From the NCBI GenBank assembly GCA_029261155.1, contig JAJDBW010000062.1, forward strand, positions 1-33,683: 33,683 bases of DNA, given 5' to 3'. Shown piece by piece: positions 16,468 through 24,301 of the stretch. A program made the translations under genes and the position numbers. The DNA comes from Nitrospirota bacterium. Lineage in GTDB: Bacteria; Nitrospirota; Nitrospiria; SBBL01; JAADHI01. How positions within the stretch are numbered: the stretch's first letter is position 1; each line of letters opens with the position of its first letter. The notes below the pieces were generated by a model, which was not told where the DNA came from, did no database searches, and saw only the letters and a program-made list of their open reading frames with translations.

Positions 16468-17637
16468 ATGATCCTAAAGACCGTAAAAAATCCTCATATA
16501 AAAAGAATGACCCCTAGGATTCTGATATCGACCTTTATCGTATTCTCTCTTTTCCTGCCGGGAAAACCGGTCAATGCCGCAGAACCTTTAGCTTCTCTCC
16601 GCGGCGCAGAAATCGAGATTGGTGGAGAACTCGAACTAGAGATTATTGATTCACAGGCCGATGGCACCGTCGTTAGAGATGGAAATGGGAATATCCTCGG
16701 TGGAACCCCCAATCCCAACTCACGAATGTCCATCGATAAAATTGTGATCACACCCAAAGTCCGCTTTAACACCGGCATTCTTTTTCAGGCCGACATTGAG
16801 TTTGGCCCAAGTAGTTCAAAAATAGATGAGGCCTGGATCAAGATTCCGGGCTTGCCCTTTAATTCCTGGATTAAATTTGGCCTGGAAGATACCTTTCACC
16901 ACCCTTCACGTAAGACGGAAGCCTATCCCATCGTGGGCCACGCCTTCTGGCAGGATGAGGACTTGGGCCTATTTATGGGGGGAGAACAGGGATCTTTCTA
17001 TTGGCGGTTTTCCGCGACGAACGGTCGAAGACTCAGAGACCGTCAAGCCGGAGAGGATGCGGTCTTCCCCATTACGACCGACGATGACGACAACGCGGAA
17101 ACCAATGCCAATAAACAAGTCGGTCTCGGGCTGGGGCTCGACCACAGCTTCAAGGAAGCCCATAAAATCGACATTCTGCCGTTTTACTTTGAATCCGATC
17201 TTAGCGCCGGAGACATGGCCTACTTGAATGCAATTACGACCTACGCGGGAGGAACACAGGACAAGCAAAGCCGCTATGGCCTTAACCTCGACTACGTGTT
17301 GAGAGGCTTTTCCTTTTTTGGGCAAATCATCATGGCGGAAGATGGCGGCATGGATCGGGATGGCTGGTATATCCAGCCTTCCTACACGCAGAAAATCGGC
17401 ATGGCCCGTTTACAGTCCATGGAATTTCTTGTGCGTTATGAAGAATACAATGTCGATCTCGTGCTTGATCCAAGCGATTCCCGAACCTGGAACCGGCAAA
17501 GAACCACCCTTGCGATTTTGAGCAAAATCGTCCCGGGTTTTACAGTCAAAGTGGAATATTATATTAACGAGGAAGACACGGGCGGCGCCAAAGTCGATAA
17601 CAACGAAGCCCTTGTCCAGCTCGAAGCCAAGTTTTAG
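16468..17637 (+). CDS. Outer-membrane porin, OprO/OprP-like
   Basis: A 389-residue predicted beta-barrel. It has a signal peptide (hydrophobic ILISTFIVFSLFLPG, cleavage near VNAAEP), then alternating amphipathic strands such as VRFNTGILFQADIEFG, DILPFYFESDLS and FTVKVEYYINEED, ending in VQLEAKF, the terminal aromatic used by the BAM complex. The pattern (IDEAWIKIPGLPFNSWIKFGLE) resembles the phosphate-selective porin O/P group, but the substrate cannot be told. AAGGAG at 16454-16459 gives an 8-nt spacer to the ATG. Its stop lies 10 nt from the end of the convergent ABC ATPase gene. The leader has a repeated CTGGGTCCGA. Confidence 0.8.
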   Translation: MILKTVKNPHIKRMTPRILISTFIVFSLFLPGKPVNAAEPLASLRGAEIEIGGELELEIIDSQADGTVVRDGNGNILGGTPNPNSRMSIDKIVITPKVRFNTGILFQADIEFGPSSSKIDEAWIKIPGLPFNSWIKFGLEDTFHHPSRKTEAYPIVGHAFWQDEDLGLFMGGEQGSFYWRFSATNGRRLRDRQAGEDAVFPITTDDDDNAETNANKQVGLGLGLDHSFKEAHKIDILPFYFESDLSAGDMAYLNAITTYAGGTQDKQSRYGLNLDYVLRGFSFFGQIIMAEDGGMDRDGWYIQPSYTQKIGMARLQSMEFLVRYEEYNVDLVLDPSDSRTWNRQRTTLAILSKIVPGFTVKVEYYINEEDTGGAKVDNNEALVQLEAKF

Positions 17638-17647
17638 CCTGCGGGTT

Positions 17648-18709
17648 TTAGGAGGACGGTCGATTCAAGGCCATTTTTTCGAAAACAACGGTGTGGGTCA
17701 ACTTCAAGCGAATATCAACCTTGACCTGATTGGGGTAGACATCGAGAGAATGCTGACTGCTATGGACGATTTCTCCGGAAGATAGGCGGAGTGTATATAG
17801 ATTCTCCGAGCCCCTAAATTGGCGTCCCCACACCGTGGCCGTTCCTGCGGGATTGGGCACCAAGTCAATGTCATCGGGACGAATCATAACTGAAACCTCT
17901 GTGCCACTGGGAAACTTCGAGTTGTTTTGAAGTGCGCCTATGACTGTTTCGATACGATCCTGTTCAACCACCCCCGAAATAAAATCTGCCTGACCCACAA
18001 AGTCGGCTACAAAAGGATTCACGGGCGTATGATAAACCGCTTCAGGCGTCCCCTGCTGCTCTAATCGCCCCTCATTCAGGAGTACAATCTTATCGGCCAT
18101 GGCAAAGGCTTCTTCGTGATCGTGAGTCACCAAGACGGCTGTTCGTCCCGTTTTCTGAAGGATCTCGGAAACGTCGGCGCGCATTTGATTACGCATGTCG
18201 GGATCCAGATTACTAAAGGGTTCGTCCAAAAGGACTACGATGGGATCGGGAGCCAAGGCCCGAGCCAAAGCCACCCGCTGCTGTTGTCCGCCCGAGAGTT
18301 CGTGTGGATAGCGATCCCGAAACGTGGAAAGTTCCACAATCGATAAGATTTCTTTTACTTTTTTATCTTGGGCCGACTTCGATAAGCGCATCAGTCCAAA
18401 GGACACATTTTTCGCTACAGTCAGATGAGGAAAAAGTGCGTAATCTTGAAAGACCATTCCAATCGCCCGATTTTCAGGGGGAACGAAATGGCCCGGCCTG
18501 CACATCTCACGTTCCTCAAGAAAGAGGGTGCCCGCATCGGGTTTCTCCAATCCGGCGATCAAACGAAGGAGGGTGGTCTTACCGCTTCCGCTCGGGCCCA
18601 AAAGCGCAAGCACTTCCCCTTCTTTGACTTGAAATGAAATATCCGAGACGGCCGGTGTCTTGCTTCCGGGATAGGCCTTGGAAACTCTGACAAGATCAAT
18701 CGTCGTCAT
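17648..18709 (-). CDS. fbpC: ABC transporter ATPase, ferric-iron (FbpC) type
   Basis: Cytoplasmic ATPase of an importer. The 353 residues include Walker A GPSGSGKTT (from about residue 38), Q-loop FQDYALFPHLTV, signature LSGGQQQR, Walker B VVLLDEPFSNLD, the H-loop in VTHDHEEA and a C-terminal TOBE-like regulatory domain. FbpC/PotA/CysA-type ATPases all share these; the iron call comes from the two-domain permease upstream and the Fur gene in the same run. It follows the permease gene by 29 nt and is the last gene of the minus-strand block. Thiamine or polyamine import remain alternatives. Confidence 0.82.
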   Translation of the reverse strand: MTTIDLVRVSKAYPGSKTPAVSDISFQVKEGEVLALLGPSGSGKTTLLRLIAGLEKPDAGTLFLEEREMCRPGHFVPPENRAIGMVFQDYALFPHLTVAKNVSFGLMRLSKSAQDKKVKEILSIVELSTFRDRYPHELSGGQQQRVALARALAPDPIVVLLDEPFSNLDPDMRNQMRADVSEILQKTGRTAVLVTHDHEEAFAMADKIVLLNEGRLEQQGTPEAVYHTPVNPFVADFVGQADFISGVVEQDRIETVIGALQNNSKFPSGTEVSVMIRPDDIDLVPNPAGTATVWGRQFRGSENLYTLRLSSGEIVHSSQHSLDVYPNQVKVDIRLKLTHTVVFEKMALNRPSS

Positions 18710-18738: not shown

Positions 18739-20382
18739 TTAAAATCGTTTCTCTGGATCTCGCATTAATAAATACACAGGAATCAGACCGGCCAATACCA
18801 GGACCATTGCAGGAAGCGCGGCACGAACCCATTCGCCTTCCGAGGTCATTTCAAAGATGCGAATCGCGAGGGTATCCCAACCGAAAGGCCGTGTCATCAG
18901 GGTAATCGGCATCTCCTTCATGACATCGACGAAAACCAGCACAAGTCCAGACATCAAGCCTCCCCGCATAATCGGAAGATAGACTCGTTTTAATAGTCCT
19001 AGACCGCTGCAGCCCAGGCTTCTCGCCGATTCGTCGAGATTTGGCGACATGCGCTTTATCGCACTTTCAATCGGTTGGTGCGCCACCGCGAGAAATCGGA
19101 TCAGATACGCGACGAGCACCACCATCAAGCTGCCTTGAAGAAAGGTCGTATTATTGAAATAATCCGCAACCCAATTATCGAACCAGGCCAGTGGAATAAA
19201 GATGCCGACAGCAAGTACCGAACCCGGTAAGGCATAACCCAAGGTGGCAATGCGAACGCACATGCGGATAGGCTGGGAGTGATGCAGACGCTCGGCATAC
19301 ACAAGAACCAGCGTACAGGCCACAGTCATGAGCGCCGCCATGCCTCCCAGAAAAAGCGAGTGAGACAAAAAATCGAAATAACGTGAACCCAGATCTCGAC
19401 CTATGGCCTGAGCACTCCAAAGAAGGAGTTGAACGACCGGGATCAAAAAAGAGATCGATAAAATCGTGAGCGCATAAGCGAAGCTGAGCCACTTTTTGAC
19501 AGGAGAAAGGGCAACACGATCTCCCTGTATGCCGCCTCTGTCAACCCGGGTATAGCGGCTCCGGAAGGTTAAACTTTGTTCCAAGACCAGAAAGGCCAAT
19601 ACGACCAAAACGAGTATCGAAGCGAGCTGAGATGCTGTAGAAAGGGAAAAAAAACCAAACCAAGATTTATAGATGAGCGTTGTAAAGGTGTCGTAATTAA
19701 AGATGGCGACGGCACCAAAATCGGCCAGCGTTTCCATCAAGACCAAGGCTAAGCCCCCCGCGACCCAAGGTTTCGCCATCGGCAAAGCCACTTTAAAAAA
19801 ACCGCGCGTCCGATTGTGTCCTAGGGTTTGTGCCGCTTCCAGCGCCCGGCGGCCTTGCGTTAAAAATGCGTTGCGTGCCAAGAGGTAGACATAAGGGTAA
19901 AGCGTCAGGGTGAAGACCAAAATCACGCCGCCTCTCGACCGGATGGGTGGAAACCAGAAACCTCCGCCAAACCATGCTCTGAATATGCTTTGAATCGGTC
20001 CGCTATAATCTAAGAGGCCAATCGCGACAAAAGCGGTGACATAGGTCGGAATTGCCATGGGTAACATGAGGGCCCAGTCGAAAAGTTTTCGACCAGGAAA
20101 GTCGTTTGCGGCGACGAGCCAAGCCAAGCTCACACCGATAAGCCCCGTTCCAAGAACCACGCCGAGACTCAGCCAAACGGTATTGCGCAAGACCTCCAGA
20201 AGAACGGTGTCGGCAAGATGCTGCCAAACCGCATCGTCAGCCTGAAATAATGATGAAAAAACAATCCCCAGCGGCACTAAGACAAGGGCGGCGATCAAAG
20301 CGACGGCCAGGCTCCATCGGTCGAATGTAAATCGGGCGATGGGTAATGCAGGTTTCCGATATTCTTCAGTCGCGATGGTCAT
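18739..20382 (-). CDS. fbpB: ABC transporter permease with two fused domains, FbpB type
   Basis: A 547-residue inner-membrane permease with twelve or so helices. It carries two copies of the EAA coupling loop: EAAQTLGHNRTRGFFKVALP in the first half and a second ESARSLGCSGLGLLKRVYLP. Two fused permease domains are typical of FbpB and ThiP. The iron reading is favoured by the Fur gene and a Fur-box-like site upstream. No periplasmic binding-protein gene is present anywhere in the block, which is unusual for this type. The ribosome site is weak. The gene lies 61 nt after the four-helix membrane protein. Confidence 0.85.
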   Translation of the reverse strand: MTIATEEYRKPALPIARFTFDRWSLAVALIAALVLVPLGIVFSSLFQADDAVWQHLADTVLLEVLRNTVWLSLGVVLGTGLIGVSLAWLVAANDFPGRKLFDWALMLPMAIPTYVTAFVAIGLLDYSGPIQSIFRAWFGGGFWFPPIRSRGGVILVFTLTLYPYVYLLARNAFLTQGRRALEAAQTLGHNRTRGFFKVALPMAKPWVAGGLALVLMETLADFGAVAIFNYDTFTTLIYKSWFGFFSLSTASQLASILVLVVLAFLVLEQSLTFRSRYTRVDRGGIQGDRVALSPVKKWLSFAYALTILSISFLIPVVQLLLWSAQAIGRDLGSRYFDFLSHSLFLGGMAALMTVACTLVLVYAERLHHSQPIRMCVRIATLGYALPGSVLAVGIFIPLAWFDNWVADYFNNTTFLQGSLMVVLVAYLIRFLAVAHQPIESAIKRMSPNLDESARSLGCSGLGLLKRVYLPIMRGGLMSGLVLVFVDVMKEMPITLMTRPFGWDTLAIRIFEMTSEGEWVRAALPAMVLVLAGLIPVYLLMRDPEKRF

Positions 20383-20443: not shown

Positions 20444-20935
20444 TTATTTCCGTCTCCAAAGTGAGTAGATTGGGGTTAATGTGAGCGGGAGGTAACTGAC
20501 CGTCATGCCTGTCCAGGCGCCGATCTGTCCGAAGGCCGCATAGGGCGTCACATATCGAATAATCCAAGGCGAGAGGAGATCGAGAAAGGTACTTCCAAAG
20601 GAAAGCCCGATAACACCCCACTTGATTTTTTGCGAAATAGGAACGGCGACATAGAGATGCGCCAAGACCAGGAGAACAATTCCCTCGATATAGGCATGAA
20701 AGTGTGTGACTTCCAATAGCTCTATAAATTCCTTTGGAAAGGCCATTTCTTCACTACCCTCGCCCCCGCGGTAATGTTTGACGATTTCGGAATAGCCGGG
20801 GCCCACGCGTTCCACAGCGATCAAAACAAAGCTTAAGTGTCCCACGAGGGCAAACACCAGAAATGCTGTATATATCACACGAATTTCACTTGAAGCTGAC
20901 TCTAGCCAATTTCCCCGCCGTGTAAAATTTTTCAC
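20444..20935 (-). CDS. Four-helix membrane protein with membrane histidines, unknown family
   Basis: A 163-residue inner-membrane protein. Four hydrophobic segments can be seen: IYTAFLVFALVGHLSFVLIAV, a THFHAYIEGIVLLVLAHLY helix, WGVIGLSFGSTFLDLLS, and WTGMTVSYLPLTLTPIYSL. Histidines lie within or at the edges of helices 1 and 2 (GH, THFH, AH), which would suit b-type haem ligands; this is inference. The start is GTG at 20935, overlapping the TGA of the flavin-transferase gene (GTGA), so the two are translationally coupled. An electron-carrier role next to an FMN-binding domain would make sense. No family recognised. Confidence 0.72.
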   Translation of the reverse strand: MKNFTRRGNWLESASSEIRVIYTAFLVFALVGHLSFVLIAVERVGPGYSEIVKHYRGGEGSEEMAFPKEFIELLEVTHFHAYIEGIVLLVLAHLYVAVPISQKIKWGVIGLSFGSTFLDLLSPWIIRYVTPYAAFGQIGAWTGMTVSYLPLTLTPIYSLWRRK

Positions 20936-22512
20936 TGCCCTACTCCATCTCTATAAATAATCTCGAACAAGACCAAGCTCTTCCGAACCGCATAGGTTGC
21001 GGCGCGAGAAGAAAGCGTTGCCCCACTAATGGGAAGTACTTCCCGGCCGAGTTCCAATGGGTCTTCACGCCGCTTTCCAAAAAACTGTTTCATAAAACGC
21101 GGGTAACGGACCTCTGAACCTTTCGATTCACGATAAACCAAGACCTCATTGCCGACGATGCAACCTTTTAAATCTATTCCCACAAGAAAAGTGATAGGAC
21201 GTTTCTTTCCAACAACATTGAGCAGCACGGCGTAACCGACTGCTTTCTTTTCCTTTCGAGCAACCCAAAATCGGTAATTTTTCTCACGAAAGCCCATACC
21301 CAAAAGCTGCTGGGCTGCATCGTGTTGCATCGTGTTCAGTTGAACATTTTCGACATCGTAGCCATCGGCATCTGGATGCATTTTTCGAAGGGCCTCTTCC
21401 TCGCTCGCAAAACGGATGGCTGTTGCATTGGCCCGGTCGGGCAGTAAAACCCCCAAGGCCAAGATGCCCATCATCGCAAGGAAAGATCGTCGTTTCATTA
21501 CACGAGGTGTAGAAAAAAAAGACCATCCCCCTGTGTTCGATATGATGATGTCTGCTTGGCTAGGCTCAGTATCGATGGAGAGCATCAAGCCTTCCACATT
21601 GGATTGAGATTCAAGCAGACGGCGGCCTTCTTTTTTACCCATGACAAAGGCTGCCGTTGAGAGCGCGTCTGCTTCCATGGCCGATTGCGCAATCACACTC
21701 ACGCTGGCCATGCCCTTTACCGGATACCCCGAACGTGGATCGATAATATGGCTATAGCGATTCCCTTGATGTATAAAACAGCGCTCGTAGTCTCCCGATG
21801 TCGAAAGGGCACGATTGGACAGCAGGACCAAATCCACCACGCCCTGTTCTCGACGTGGATCTTGAATCCCGATTTGCCAGCCGGTTTTCCCAGAAGGCGC
21901 ACCTAGCGCATAGAGTGAGCTTCCAAAACTAAGCAGGCCGTCTTTAATGCCATAAGACTTTAGGCTTGCGACGGCGCGATCAATGGCATAGCCTTTTACA
22001 ATCCCACCCAAATTGAGGGACATGTCCCTTTTGCCCAGGACAAGTTCTCCGATCTCCTCGTCAATTTTCAGTGATTGAAACCCCACTGCACGACGTTTCG
22101 AAGCAATTGCGGCGTCCGAGGGCGGACCGATATGATGATGCTTCAGACCGAAGCCCCAGAGATCGATTAAAGGGCCGGAACTGGGATCGTAAGCCCCCGC
22201 GCTCATTTCTGAATAGTGTAATGCGCAGGAAAGGATCTCAAGTATCTCCGGCACCAAGCGATATCGCCCTTCTCTACCCGCTGCATTTACAAGAGCGATA
22301 GGGCTCTCCGGTCTAAAAATACTAAAGAGCGCTTCGATTCGGGCCACTTCCCGAAAGGCTGCGTCGACCGCTTTTGCACAAAGCGTTTCGGGGCCCAGGG
22401 CGGTAATTTCCATCGGCGCACCCATCAGGACACGGGTGCGCCGATACATCCTGTTTATTATTTTTGAACGAAAGGCGACCCTTCGGTCGCCTTTCGAGGC
22501 ATTATCGTTCAT
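20932..22512 (-). CDS. ApbE flavin transferase fused to an FMN-binding domain
   Basis: 526 residues in one open frame, two parts. Residues about 22-335 are a full ApbE: RTRVLMGAPMEIT, GAYDPSSGPLIDLWGFG, LGGIVKGYAIDRA (residues 168-180), SHIIDPRSGYP (254-264) and MEADALSTAAFVMG. ApbE links FMN to Thr/Ser of a target protein in the periplasm. Residues 339-526 start with a signal-like MKRRSFLAMMGILALG and form an RnfG/NqrC-type FMN-binding domain with flavinylation motif SGATLSS (496-502). I chose the ATG at 22512, 13 nt after the porin stop with a GGATGG site. No N-terminal signal for ApbE is visible. Either a true enzyme-substrate fusion or two proteins joined by an error or slippage at the T8 tract (21513-21520). 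Confidence 0.82.
   Translation of the reverse strand: MNDNASKGDRRVAFRSKIINRMYRRTRVLMGAPMEITALGPETLCAKAVDAAFREVARIEALFSIFRPESPIALVNAAGREGRYRLVPEILEILSCALHYSEMSAGAYDPSSGPLIDLWGFGLKHHHIGPPSDAAIASKRRAVGFQSLKIDEEIGELVLGKRDMSLNLGGIVKGYAIDRAVASLKSYGIKDGLLSFGSSLYALGAPSGKTGWQIGIQDPRREQGVVDLVLLSNRALSTSGDYERCFIHQGNRYSHIIDPRSGYPVKGMASVSVIAQSAMEADALSTAAFVMGKKEGRRLLESQSNVEGLMLSIDTEPSQADIIISNTGGWSFFSTPRVMKRRSFLAMMGILALGVLLPDRANATAIRFASEEEALRKMHPDADGYDVENVQLNTMQHDAAQQLLGMGFREKNYRFWVARKEKKAVGYAVLLNVVGKKRPITFLVGIDLKGCIVGNEVLVYRESKGSEVRYPRFMKQFFGKRREDPLELGREVLPISGATLSSRAATYAVRKSLVLFEIIYRDGVGQ
22469..22496 (-). other. Perfect 12-bp hairpin at the porin-apbE junction
   Basis: CGAAAGGCGACC (22469-22480) and GGTCGCCTTTCG (22485-22496) pair without mismatch around a 4-nt loop. 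It lies 30-57 nt past the porin stop and inside codons 6-15 of the ApbE fusion. There is no good T-run, so it may act in mRNA stability or attenuation rather than as a full terminator. Confidence 0.7.
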
Positions 22513-22525
22513 CAACTTCCATCCA

Positions 22526-23722
22526 CTAGAACATATAGGCGAGTCCGAAATTGTATTGATCTGTATCGCCACCGGCGGCATCCTGAAAATTTTGAAAGTC
22601 CGCCTTGAAAGCCACTTGAGGATCGGGATAATAAACAATTCCGACTGTCGTGACCTCTCGATCGTTTTTGCCACTGGCTGCAAAAGCGACCCCATCGCCA
22701 TTAAGACCGCTCGGAAGGGCATCTTGCGTATTCACTTCGGAAAGACGCGCGAAGGGAACGAGATCCCATGATGTTCCCATAAGATGTGCCAGATGATAGG
22801 CCAGCTCTATGGACCATCCGACCAGCTCTTCACCCACGGTTTGGCATGCGAGCGGACCGGATATAAACGCACCCGTCGTGGTATTGGCTGCACTGGGTGC
22901 TCCCGCTTTACATGTGGCGCGACTAATGTTATCGGCCTCGTCAATATCGATCTTTGCATACACGGCCTGAACATCGATCCCTGACATGCGTAGCCTGCCA
23001 TCAAGTGTGTAAAGGAAAACGGAAGGACTGCCCACGATAGTGTTATTCTGATCCACCTCGCCATGATAGACGGACGTGCCCAAATCCAGGCCGGCAAGGG
23101 GGTTGTATTCCAGGCGGCCGACCACGGCAAGTTTCTCACCGGTTTGCGGCTTACCTTCACCACCGGCAGCCTTTCCTCGGCCGCCTCGTATCCCTGAAGA
23201 CCCGCTAAACCCTTCGGCGGCCAGTCCGGAAACGACATAGACCCGATATTTGAGGCCTTCCATCGGCGACCCAAAAATGCCGATTCCTCCTTCCTGCCAA
23301 GTCGTCGGAATAATGACCGATTGAAGAAGCGGGCGTTCGACACTGTAAAAGAGCGTAGGCTCGTGATATTCGTTCAAAGGACCCACCGGCATTAACATGA
23401 CACCCGCCCGCATGTTAAAAGACGGATTGATCGAAAAATCGAGATAGGCAAATTCCAATTCCATCTCCTGCGCCGCATGTTCAAAATCGACCTCAGTGTG
23501 AAGGCTGATGGTGTCGTTGATGTCATAACTTAAGCCCCAAACCATTCTGTGCAAATCCATTTTGGATTGGCCGCCATTACTCGGAACGTTGTAGTGAAGC
23601 TCACCATAACCATGAAGCTGGACCTTAGAACTTTCCGCTTCGGCCTCCATCTCCAAGGCCCAGGCCTGCGGTTCCATATCTAGTACGAATAAAGTAAAAA
23701 AAGTGAATACCCATTTTTGCAT
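22526..23722 (-). CDS. Outer-membrane porin-like beta-barrel protein
   Basis: A 398-residue predicted barrel: signal peptide (KWVFTFFTLFVLD, cleavage after QAWALE), then HGYGELHYNVPSNGG and a Met-rich strand region (FNMRAGVMLMPVGPLNEYHEP), typical of porins that resemble OprP or DUF3138-like barrels. It ends NFGLAYMF, with a terminal Phe. A Gly-rich loop (SGSSGIRGGRGKAAGGEG) is probably extracellular. The ATG at 23722 was chosen because GGGAGG sits 8 nt upstream; the frame is open to 23776 but has no site there. It follows fur and precedes the flavin genes, so it may serve iron uptake; this is inferred from context. Confidence 0.8.
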   Translation of the reverse strand: MQKWVFTFFTLFVLDMEPQAWALEMEAEAESSKVQLHGYGELHYNVPSNGGQSKMDLHRMVWGLSYDINDTISLHTEVDFEHAAQEMELEFAYLDFSINPSFNMRAGVMLMPVGPLNEYHEPTLFYSVERPLLQSVIIPTTWQEGGIGIFGSPMEGLKYRVYVVSGLAAEGFSGSSGIRGGRGKAAGGEGKPQTGEKLAVVGRLEYNPLAGLDLGTSVYHGEVDQNNTIVGSPSVFLYTLDGRLRMSGIDVQAVYAKIDIDEADNISRATCKAGAPSAANTTTGAFISGPLACQTVGEELVGWSIELAYHLAHLMGTSWDLVPFARLSEVNTQDALPSGLNGDGVAFAASGKNDREVTTVGIVYYPDPQVAFKADFQNFQDAAGGDTDQYNFGLAYMF

Positions 23723-23863
23723 CTTCCAGAACCTCCCTTTTGATTGATTTATAGTGTTAGATGTGCGTTTCCGCACCTTCGGGCTCTGGTTCGCAAAGGA
23801 TCTCTGGCCTCAGGTATAGAGGGACAACTCCCCCTATTATCTTTTAATTCACACGAATGTCGT

Positions 23864-24301
23864 TTATTTATTATTCTTGGTGCAGGTTGCACAAGTACCA
23901 TAAAGCTCCAGTCGATGACTGAAAATTTTAAAGTGATGTTTCTTGGCGACCTCTTCCTGCAATTTTTCGATTTCTCTATTCTCAAACTCGATTATTTTAT
24001 TGCACTGACGACAGATGAGATGATCGTGATGGTTCACATTGTAAGTGAGTTCGTAACGGGCCTGTCCATCGCCAAACTGGCGTTGCTCGGCAAGACCGCT
24101 TTCACAAAAAAGATTTAAGGTTCGGTAGATGGTTGCCAAGCCGACCGATGCACCTTTGTCCTTCATATGCCGATATAATTCCTCTGCCGTAATGTGACGC
24201 TCAAGCGCCATAAAGGCCTTCAGAACGGCATAACGTTCTTTGGTGACTTTGAGACGATGTTTGGAGATATGTTTTTTTAAAATGTCTTCTTCTTTGGTCA
24301 T
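23864..24301 (-). CDS. fur: Fur-family metal-dependent repressor
   Basis: A 145-residue winged-helix repressor. Visible are LKVTKERYAVLKAFMALERHITAEELY, the recognition helix SVGLATIYRTLNLF, the metal-site run HHDHLICRQC (residues 91-100) and the C-terminal LYGTCATC. The two CxxC pairs (Cys97/100, Cys137/140) form the structural zinc site. The layout fits Fur better than PerR or Zur, though these cannot be separated for certain. AGGAAG lies 3-4 nt before the ATG. It follows the Com-like gene by 56 nt, and a Fur-box-like site upstream of that gene suggests autoregulation. Confidence 0.92.
   Translation of the reverse strand: MTKEEDILKKHISKHRLKVTKERYAVLKAFMALERHITAEELYRHMKDKGASVGLATIYRTLNLFCESGLAEQRQFGDGQARYELTYNVNHHDHLICRQCNKIIEFENREIEKLQEEVAKKHHFKIFSHRLELYGTCATCTKNNK

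Follow-up and report, generated by a model that had tools for sequence, protein, structure and literature searches.

The 33,683-nucleotide stretch of Nitrospirota DNA analysed here (the window) encodes a protein of 526 residues in which a predicted flavin transferase of the ApbE family is joined in frame, through an internal signal of the twin-arginine (Tat) type, to an FMN_bind domain. This layout suggests flavin attachment within the cell, with export limited to the completed electron carrier. The reading we favor, to which we assign a probability of roughly 0.6, is that of a self-flavinylating, half-exported protein: the cytoplasmic ApbE half would modify the C-terminal domain of its own chain, and the Tat system would export that domain in its folded state.

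A transferase and its predicted substrate in one reading frame

The gene and its parts lie in the window as follows.

20932-22512, minus strand: fusion gene, ApbE then internal Tat signal then FMN_bind, 526 amino acids (open reading frame, Pfam, homologues)
21586-22425, minus strand: ApbE FAD:protein FMN transferase domain, residues 30-309, without an N-terminal export signal (PF02424, 275.8 bits, above the Pfam cut-off)
21513-21520, minus strand: T8 tract, coding, no frame change needed (sequence and relatives)
21424-21498, minus strand: internal twin-arginine signal MKRRSFLAMMGILALGVLLPDRANA, residues 339-363, with an A-x-A cleavage-like site (motif in 17 of 17 fusions)
20974-21210, minus strand: FMN_bind domain of the RnfG/NqrC type, residues 435-513 (PF04205, 31.1 bits, above the Pfam cut-off)
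21016-21018, minus strand: Thr499 of SGAT, the predicted flavinylation site (fusion alignment and published motif)

The frame opens with an ATG at 22512-22510, and its stop codon ends at 20932. A preliminary description of this DNA, which did not give the strand, had proposed that a full ApbE runs without interruption into an RnfG/NqrC-type domain carrying SGATLSS (S496 to S502), and the intact frame with its two Pfam domains bears this out. The ApbE half keeps the signatures of its family and is predicted to be a flavin transferase: S239, H255 and D282, positions set by alignment to solved ApbEs, are invariant across the 15-member fusion alignment, and a review lists Ser241, His257 and Asp285 as the conserved ApbE residues (PMC12052999). 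Foldseek matched the fusion to FmnB (E 6.3e-25), with FmnB and other ApbE structures spanning E 2e-19 to 6e-25; these were followed by RnfG and NqrC. The FMN_bind domain matched RnfG chains both by profile (E 5e-8) and by fold (E 2.7e-6), and PF02424 and PF04205 were both matched in all 15 members of the alignment. The rnfG score of the fusion (NCBIfam, 28.7 bits) lies below the cut-off of 102, and no Rnf operon surrounds the gene, whose neighbors encode a porin, a four-helix protein, ABC components and Fur. In an AlphaFold2 model (mean pLDDT 82.6) the chain forms two folded domains with a signal helix (residues 341-355) between low-confidence, loose linkers.

The motif described for ApbE flavinylation is D-x-x-[S/T]-G-A-[S/T] (PMC12052999), of which the window has the [S/T]-G-A-[S/T] part as S496-G497-A498-T499, the first three residues being invariant and the threonine almost invariant in the fusion alignment. 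Two departures count against our main reading. The Asp of the motif, six residues before Thr499, is replaced by Leu in the window, at a position that varies among relatives and is Asp in some; in another protein its loss had minor effects only (PMC12052999). The other departure is a G-S at residues 197-198 (window positions 21919-21924) in all 15 fused ApbEs, where the solved ApbEs used for comparison mostly have G-G, and on this alignment it is a change specific to the fused clade.

The fusion is shared among Nitrospiria

Homologues were sought in 147 genomes; the one that carries the window is 3.56 Mb in size and 95.6% complete. Full-length two-domain homologues at about 38-54% identity occur in the same family, order and class, and because they share the same two-domain frame, a frame fused by chance is excluded. 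The unit is present in 17 Nitrospiria genomes including that of the window, the 16 others comprising 14 intact copies, one cut by a contig end and one split within ApbE; carriers include Candidatus Manganitrophaceae, Candidatus Manganitrophus sp. GAC4, Candidatus Troglogloeales and other Nitrospiria metagenome-assembled genomes (MAGs). An apparently separate FMN_bind gene (genome G008) was rejected as such, since its reading frame begins inside ApbE at the contig end and is thus a cut fusion. The split copy (G017) probably reflects assembly frameshifts, because the ABC permease of the same chromosome is also in pieces.

The preliminary description had correctly located a run of eight T residues at 21513-21520, just before the internal signal, and had raised slippage or a sequence error there. 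That such an error joins two genes strikes us as extremely improbable: the tract does exist, but relatives that carry other DNA at the joint are fused nonetheless and keep both frame and spacing, with exactly 10 residues between a conserved Trp and the twin arginine in 10 of the 17 fusions, the window among them. Slippage was accordingly rejected. An alignment of homologues had also been proposed for finding fused or split forms; homologues of the fused clade turned out to be fused, as opposed to all relatives having two separate genes. Judged by these comparisons, the fusion is real and conserved and is not a homopolymer error.

The FMN_bind profile gave no match in three further genomes from the family, one of which belongs to the same genus. 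Across most of the class, in families f6, f13, f14 and f15, FMN_bind is encoded by a frame of its own, about 207-434 codons long, after which comes the same four-helix gene. Where looked at, these unfused proteins carry a Sec-type signal; an ApbE lies nearby in several of the sampled Nitrospiria loci, and wherever it is in view it is an exported one. In the tree, the fused ApbEs form one clade (support 98/96) that also takes in a long-branched planctomycete row and stands apart from both exported and Proteobacterial ApbEs, and the fused FMN_bind domains likewise form one clade (91/69). With a single clade for each half, the fusion most simply arose by one event.

Other arrangements of the two domains were also encountered. 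A Planctomycetota MAG record (L062, 5965-7542) has the reverse fusion, with an N-terminal signal, FMN_bind and then ApbE, after a porin gene. It was rejected as an instance of the same arrangement and is treated as a separate one; its long branch groups with the fused ApbEs, but its placement is unsure. Elsewhere (genome G383, L131, 4440-6519) an FMN_bind gene, a signal-less ApbE and a second FMN_bind gene follow one another, the DNA that separates ApbE from the second FMN_bind looking unrelated; this locus was set aside.

An internal Tat-type signal and no signal ahead of ApbE

The MKRRSFL sequence noted earlier at residue 339 (codon 21498-21496) is where it was said to be and forms the start of the junction signal. 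An RR-x-[FV]-[LM] motif occurs at the junction in 17 of 17 fusions, as RRRFL in most; a hydrophobic core follows the twin arginine, and in most of the fusions an A-x-A or similar site lies behind that core. It is the combination of an S/T-R-R-x-F-L-K-like motif with a hydrophobic core, both found at the junction, by which we assign it as a putative Tat signal. TatC is encoded in the genome.

No hydrophobic stretch precedes the ApbE fold in any of the 15 fused ApbEs, in which only 8-29 residues (29 in the window) come before the first ApbE strand motif; the ten exported ApbEs used for comparison have 33-70 residues before the fold. The best 12-residue Kyte-Doolittle mean in this region is 0.10 in the window versus 2.05-3.13 in the exported set. 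The fused ApbE thus lacks the N-terminal signal that marks exported ApbEs, whether lipoprotein or Sec, and the earlier remark that ApbE lacks an export signal of its own holds for the window and for all 15 fusions alike.

Genes around the fusion

The following neighbors belong to the same locus.

23864-24301, minus strand: Fur-family regulator (PF01475, 131 bits)
22526-23776, minus strand: outer-membrane porin-like beta barrel, upstream partner gene (weak Porin_4 match, below the cut-off)
20444-20935, minus strand: 163-residue membrane protein with four long helices and invariant H78, H80 and H93 (model pLDDT 85)
18739-20382, minus strand: two-domain ABC permease, putative substrate iron from the Fur context (profile matches and linkage)
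17648-18709, minus strand: ABC ATPase partner (profile matches and linkage)

The porin, fusion and four-helix genes are linked, and the Fur, ABC permease and ATPase genes join them in loci of the order: a porin-like homologue stands next to most fusions and a Fur gene is linked in most fusion loci. The four-helix gene overlaps the fusion stop by 4 bases and adjoins FMN_bind both in fusion loci and in unfused Nitrospirota loci. Its product gave no Pfam match over the cut-off, and a fold search returned common helical bundles only, with no clear match. In Pseudocolwellia, cytochrome b561 and Rieske proteins occupy the place beside FMN_bind, and in another gammaproteobacterium PepSY does; because of this analogy, together with the invariant histidines, we regard the four-helix protein as a putative membrane b-type cytochrome and a candidate for a new cytochrome family.

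The NCBIfam models nearest to the ABC genes represent several substrate families, none over its cut-off. Flavinylation is generally linked with iron (PMC8238504), and from this link and the Fur neighbor we infer that the cluster may have a role in iron metabolism. A second porin-like gene (16468-17637, plus strand) lies beside the ABC genes, and a similar-looking protein is found between Fur and the permease in another locus (L034, 9664-10806).

Proposed flavinylation before export and its alternatives

According to the reading we favor, the ApbE half would fold in the cytoplasm and take up FAD there, and FMN would be transferred to Thr499 of the C-terminal domain, either in cis or from one copy to another. 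Guided by the internal Tat signal, this domain, folded and already flavinylated, would then cross the inner membrane and leave ApbE inside, after which signal peptidase would cut, probably after A363, to free the FMN protein in the periplasm. The exported protein would there relay electrons from the neighboring four-helix histidine protein, itself probably a cytochrome of the b type, to an acceptor that is perhaps ferric iron, a suggestion made because Fur and ABC-transporter genes adjoin. No ApbE or FMN_bind other than those of the fusion was found in the genome, and DUF2271 and DUF3570 gave no match in it. An RnfD-like match (NQR2_RnfD_RnfE) in the genome was considered as a second substrate, but it is not an obvious one and has no SGAT.

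A comparable pairing exists in unfused form and speaks for this reading, as does the exported ApbE seen near Sec-type FMN_bind in the sampled Nitrospiria. In ten Proteobacterial loci (Curvibacter, Pseudocolwellia, Colwellia, Marinicella and others), a gene for a Tat-FMN_bind protein is directly followed by one for a signal-less ApbE. In six Gammaproteobacteria the FMN_bind that precedes a signal-less ApbE is Sec-like, and these loci break any strict rule that a signal-less ApbE always accompanies Tat-FMN_bind; an unsignalled ApbE by itself does not, therefore, imply Tat export. One Pseudocolwellia locus (L067, 4868-8449) encodes an outer-membrane DUF6662 barrel, the Tat-FMN_bind protein, the signal-less ApbE, a cytochrome b561-like protein and a Rieske protein with a twin-arginine start.

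The preliminary description had left a choice between a fusion threaded across the membrane and an internal start at 21498 that yields a separate FMN protein. The conserved Tat signal gives the former a concrete form, with ApbE inside and the FMN domain outside, and the latter now looks weak. We think it unlikely that two products are made, namely the full fusion and a Tat-exported FMN protein begun at codon 339 (21498) and modified in trans by the ApbE-containing product. A start codon does stand at this position in 9 of the 17 fusions, as ATG in the window only and, in 8 of its 16 relatives, as TTG (seven) or GTG (one); every Leu found there is encoded by TTG, a codon that supplies 7-32% of the Leu codons in those seven genes, and in unfused Proteobacteria MKRR forms begin exactly at this point. 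However, none of the 17 fusions has a Shine-Dalgarno sequence before codon 339, eight have no start codon at the position, and three of these have none within 25 codons upstream either. Codon 339 may instead be the relic of a formerly separate gene's start, or a weak second start.

An uncleaved fusion that remains in the inner membrane seems to us a little less probable still. Here ApbE would be cytoplasmic, a single transmembrane helix would follow, and the FMN domain would be tethered outside as a fixed electron relay; the one hydrophobic segment (residues 341-357) with short linkers on either side would suit such a design, but most fusions have A-x-A or similar sites behind the hydrophobic core, and the paired unfused proteins carry ordinary, cleavable-looking signals. 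Transport of the whole fusion, with ApbE flavinylating its partner in the periplasm, would agree with the review that places most bacterial ApbEs outside the cytoplasm, where most of the known enzymes work (PMC12052999). The reverse-order planctomycete protein, with its N-terminal signal, is probably exported whole in this manner. In the Nitrospiria fusions, by contrast, the sole signal comes after ApbE, and we rate whole export as highly improbable. It is well established that Tat signals enter the membrane in looped form and leave the N-terminus on the inner side (Fincher 1998, cited in PMC13186574).

Relation to known flavinylation systems

Each part of the proposed system has a precedent. 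In the kinetoplastid NADH:fumarate reductase (Leptomonas, Trypanosoma brucei), an N-terminal ApbE domain is fused to its target (PMC12052999) and acts inside the cell, as we propose here, but that target is an intracellular reductase with no export signal between the parts, whereas here the target is an FMN_bind domain of RnfG type that follows a Tat signal. Klebsiella pneumoniae has a cytosolic ApbE, also without a signal peptide, that goes with a soluble fumarate reductase (PMC12052999); its genes are separate and not fused, and the product stays in the cytoplasm. RnfG and NqrC share the FMN_bind fold with SGAT but are parts of the Rnf and Nqr pumps served by a separate ApbE, while the domain described here stands alone in a porin and four-helix cluster. 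The closest likeness for the signal is the Streptomyces Rieske protein, which has an internal Tat signal, so that an N-terminal part remains in the membrane and Tat moves the C-terminal domain (PMC13186574); the part left behind there consists of polytopic membrane helices, and here it is a soluble enzyme predicted to modify the cargo. Flavinylation clusters with PepSY, MsrQ or DUF4405 cytochromes (Meheust 2021, PMC8238504; Huang 2024, PMC11334425) resemble this locus in placing a flavinylated protein by a membrane cytochrome and iron-related genes, but differ in that here ApbE is fused to the substrate and the four-helix protein matches no Pfam family over the cut-off. In a word search of those two surveys the combination did not turn up, and neither "fused" nor "fusion" occurred.

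Implications

An enzyme-target fusion with a Tat signal between its parts points to flavinylation before export. More broadly, and with our judgment evenly poised, maturation enzyme and cargo may here be united in one chain such that modification occurs in the cytoplasm, Tat export follows by way of the internal signal and the enzyme is left behind, yielding an extracytosolic flavoprotein without export of either FAD or ApbE; the fusion would then belong to a broader pathway of pre-export flavinylation that several Proteobacteria follow with paired Tat-FMN_bind and signal-less ApbE proteins. If this is true, the need to export FAD falls away, and the order of events becomes testable within one protein. 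The lineage that carries the fusion includes the manganese oxidizer Manganitrophus, and the neighbors of the fusion are putative metal uptake or redox genes.
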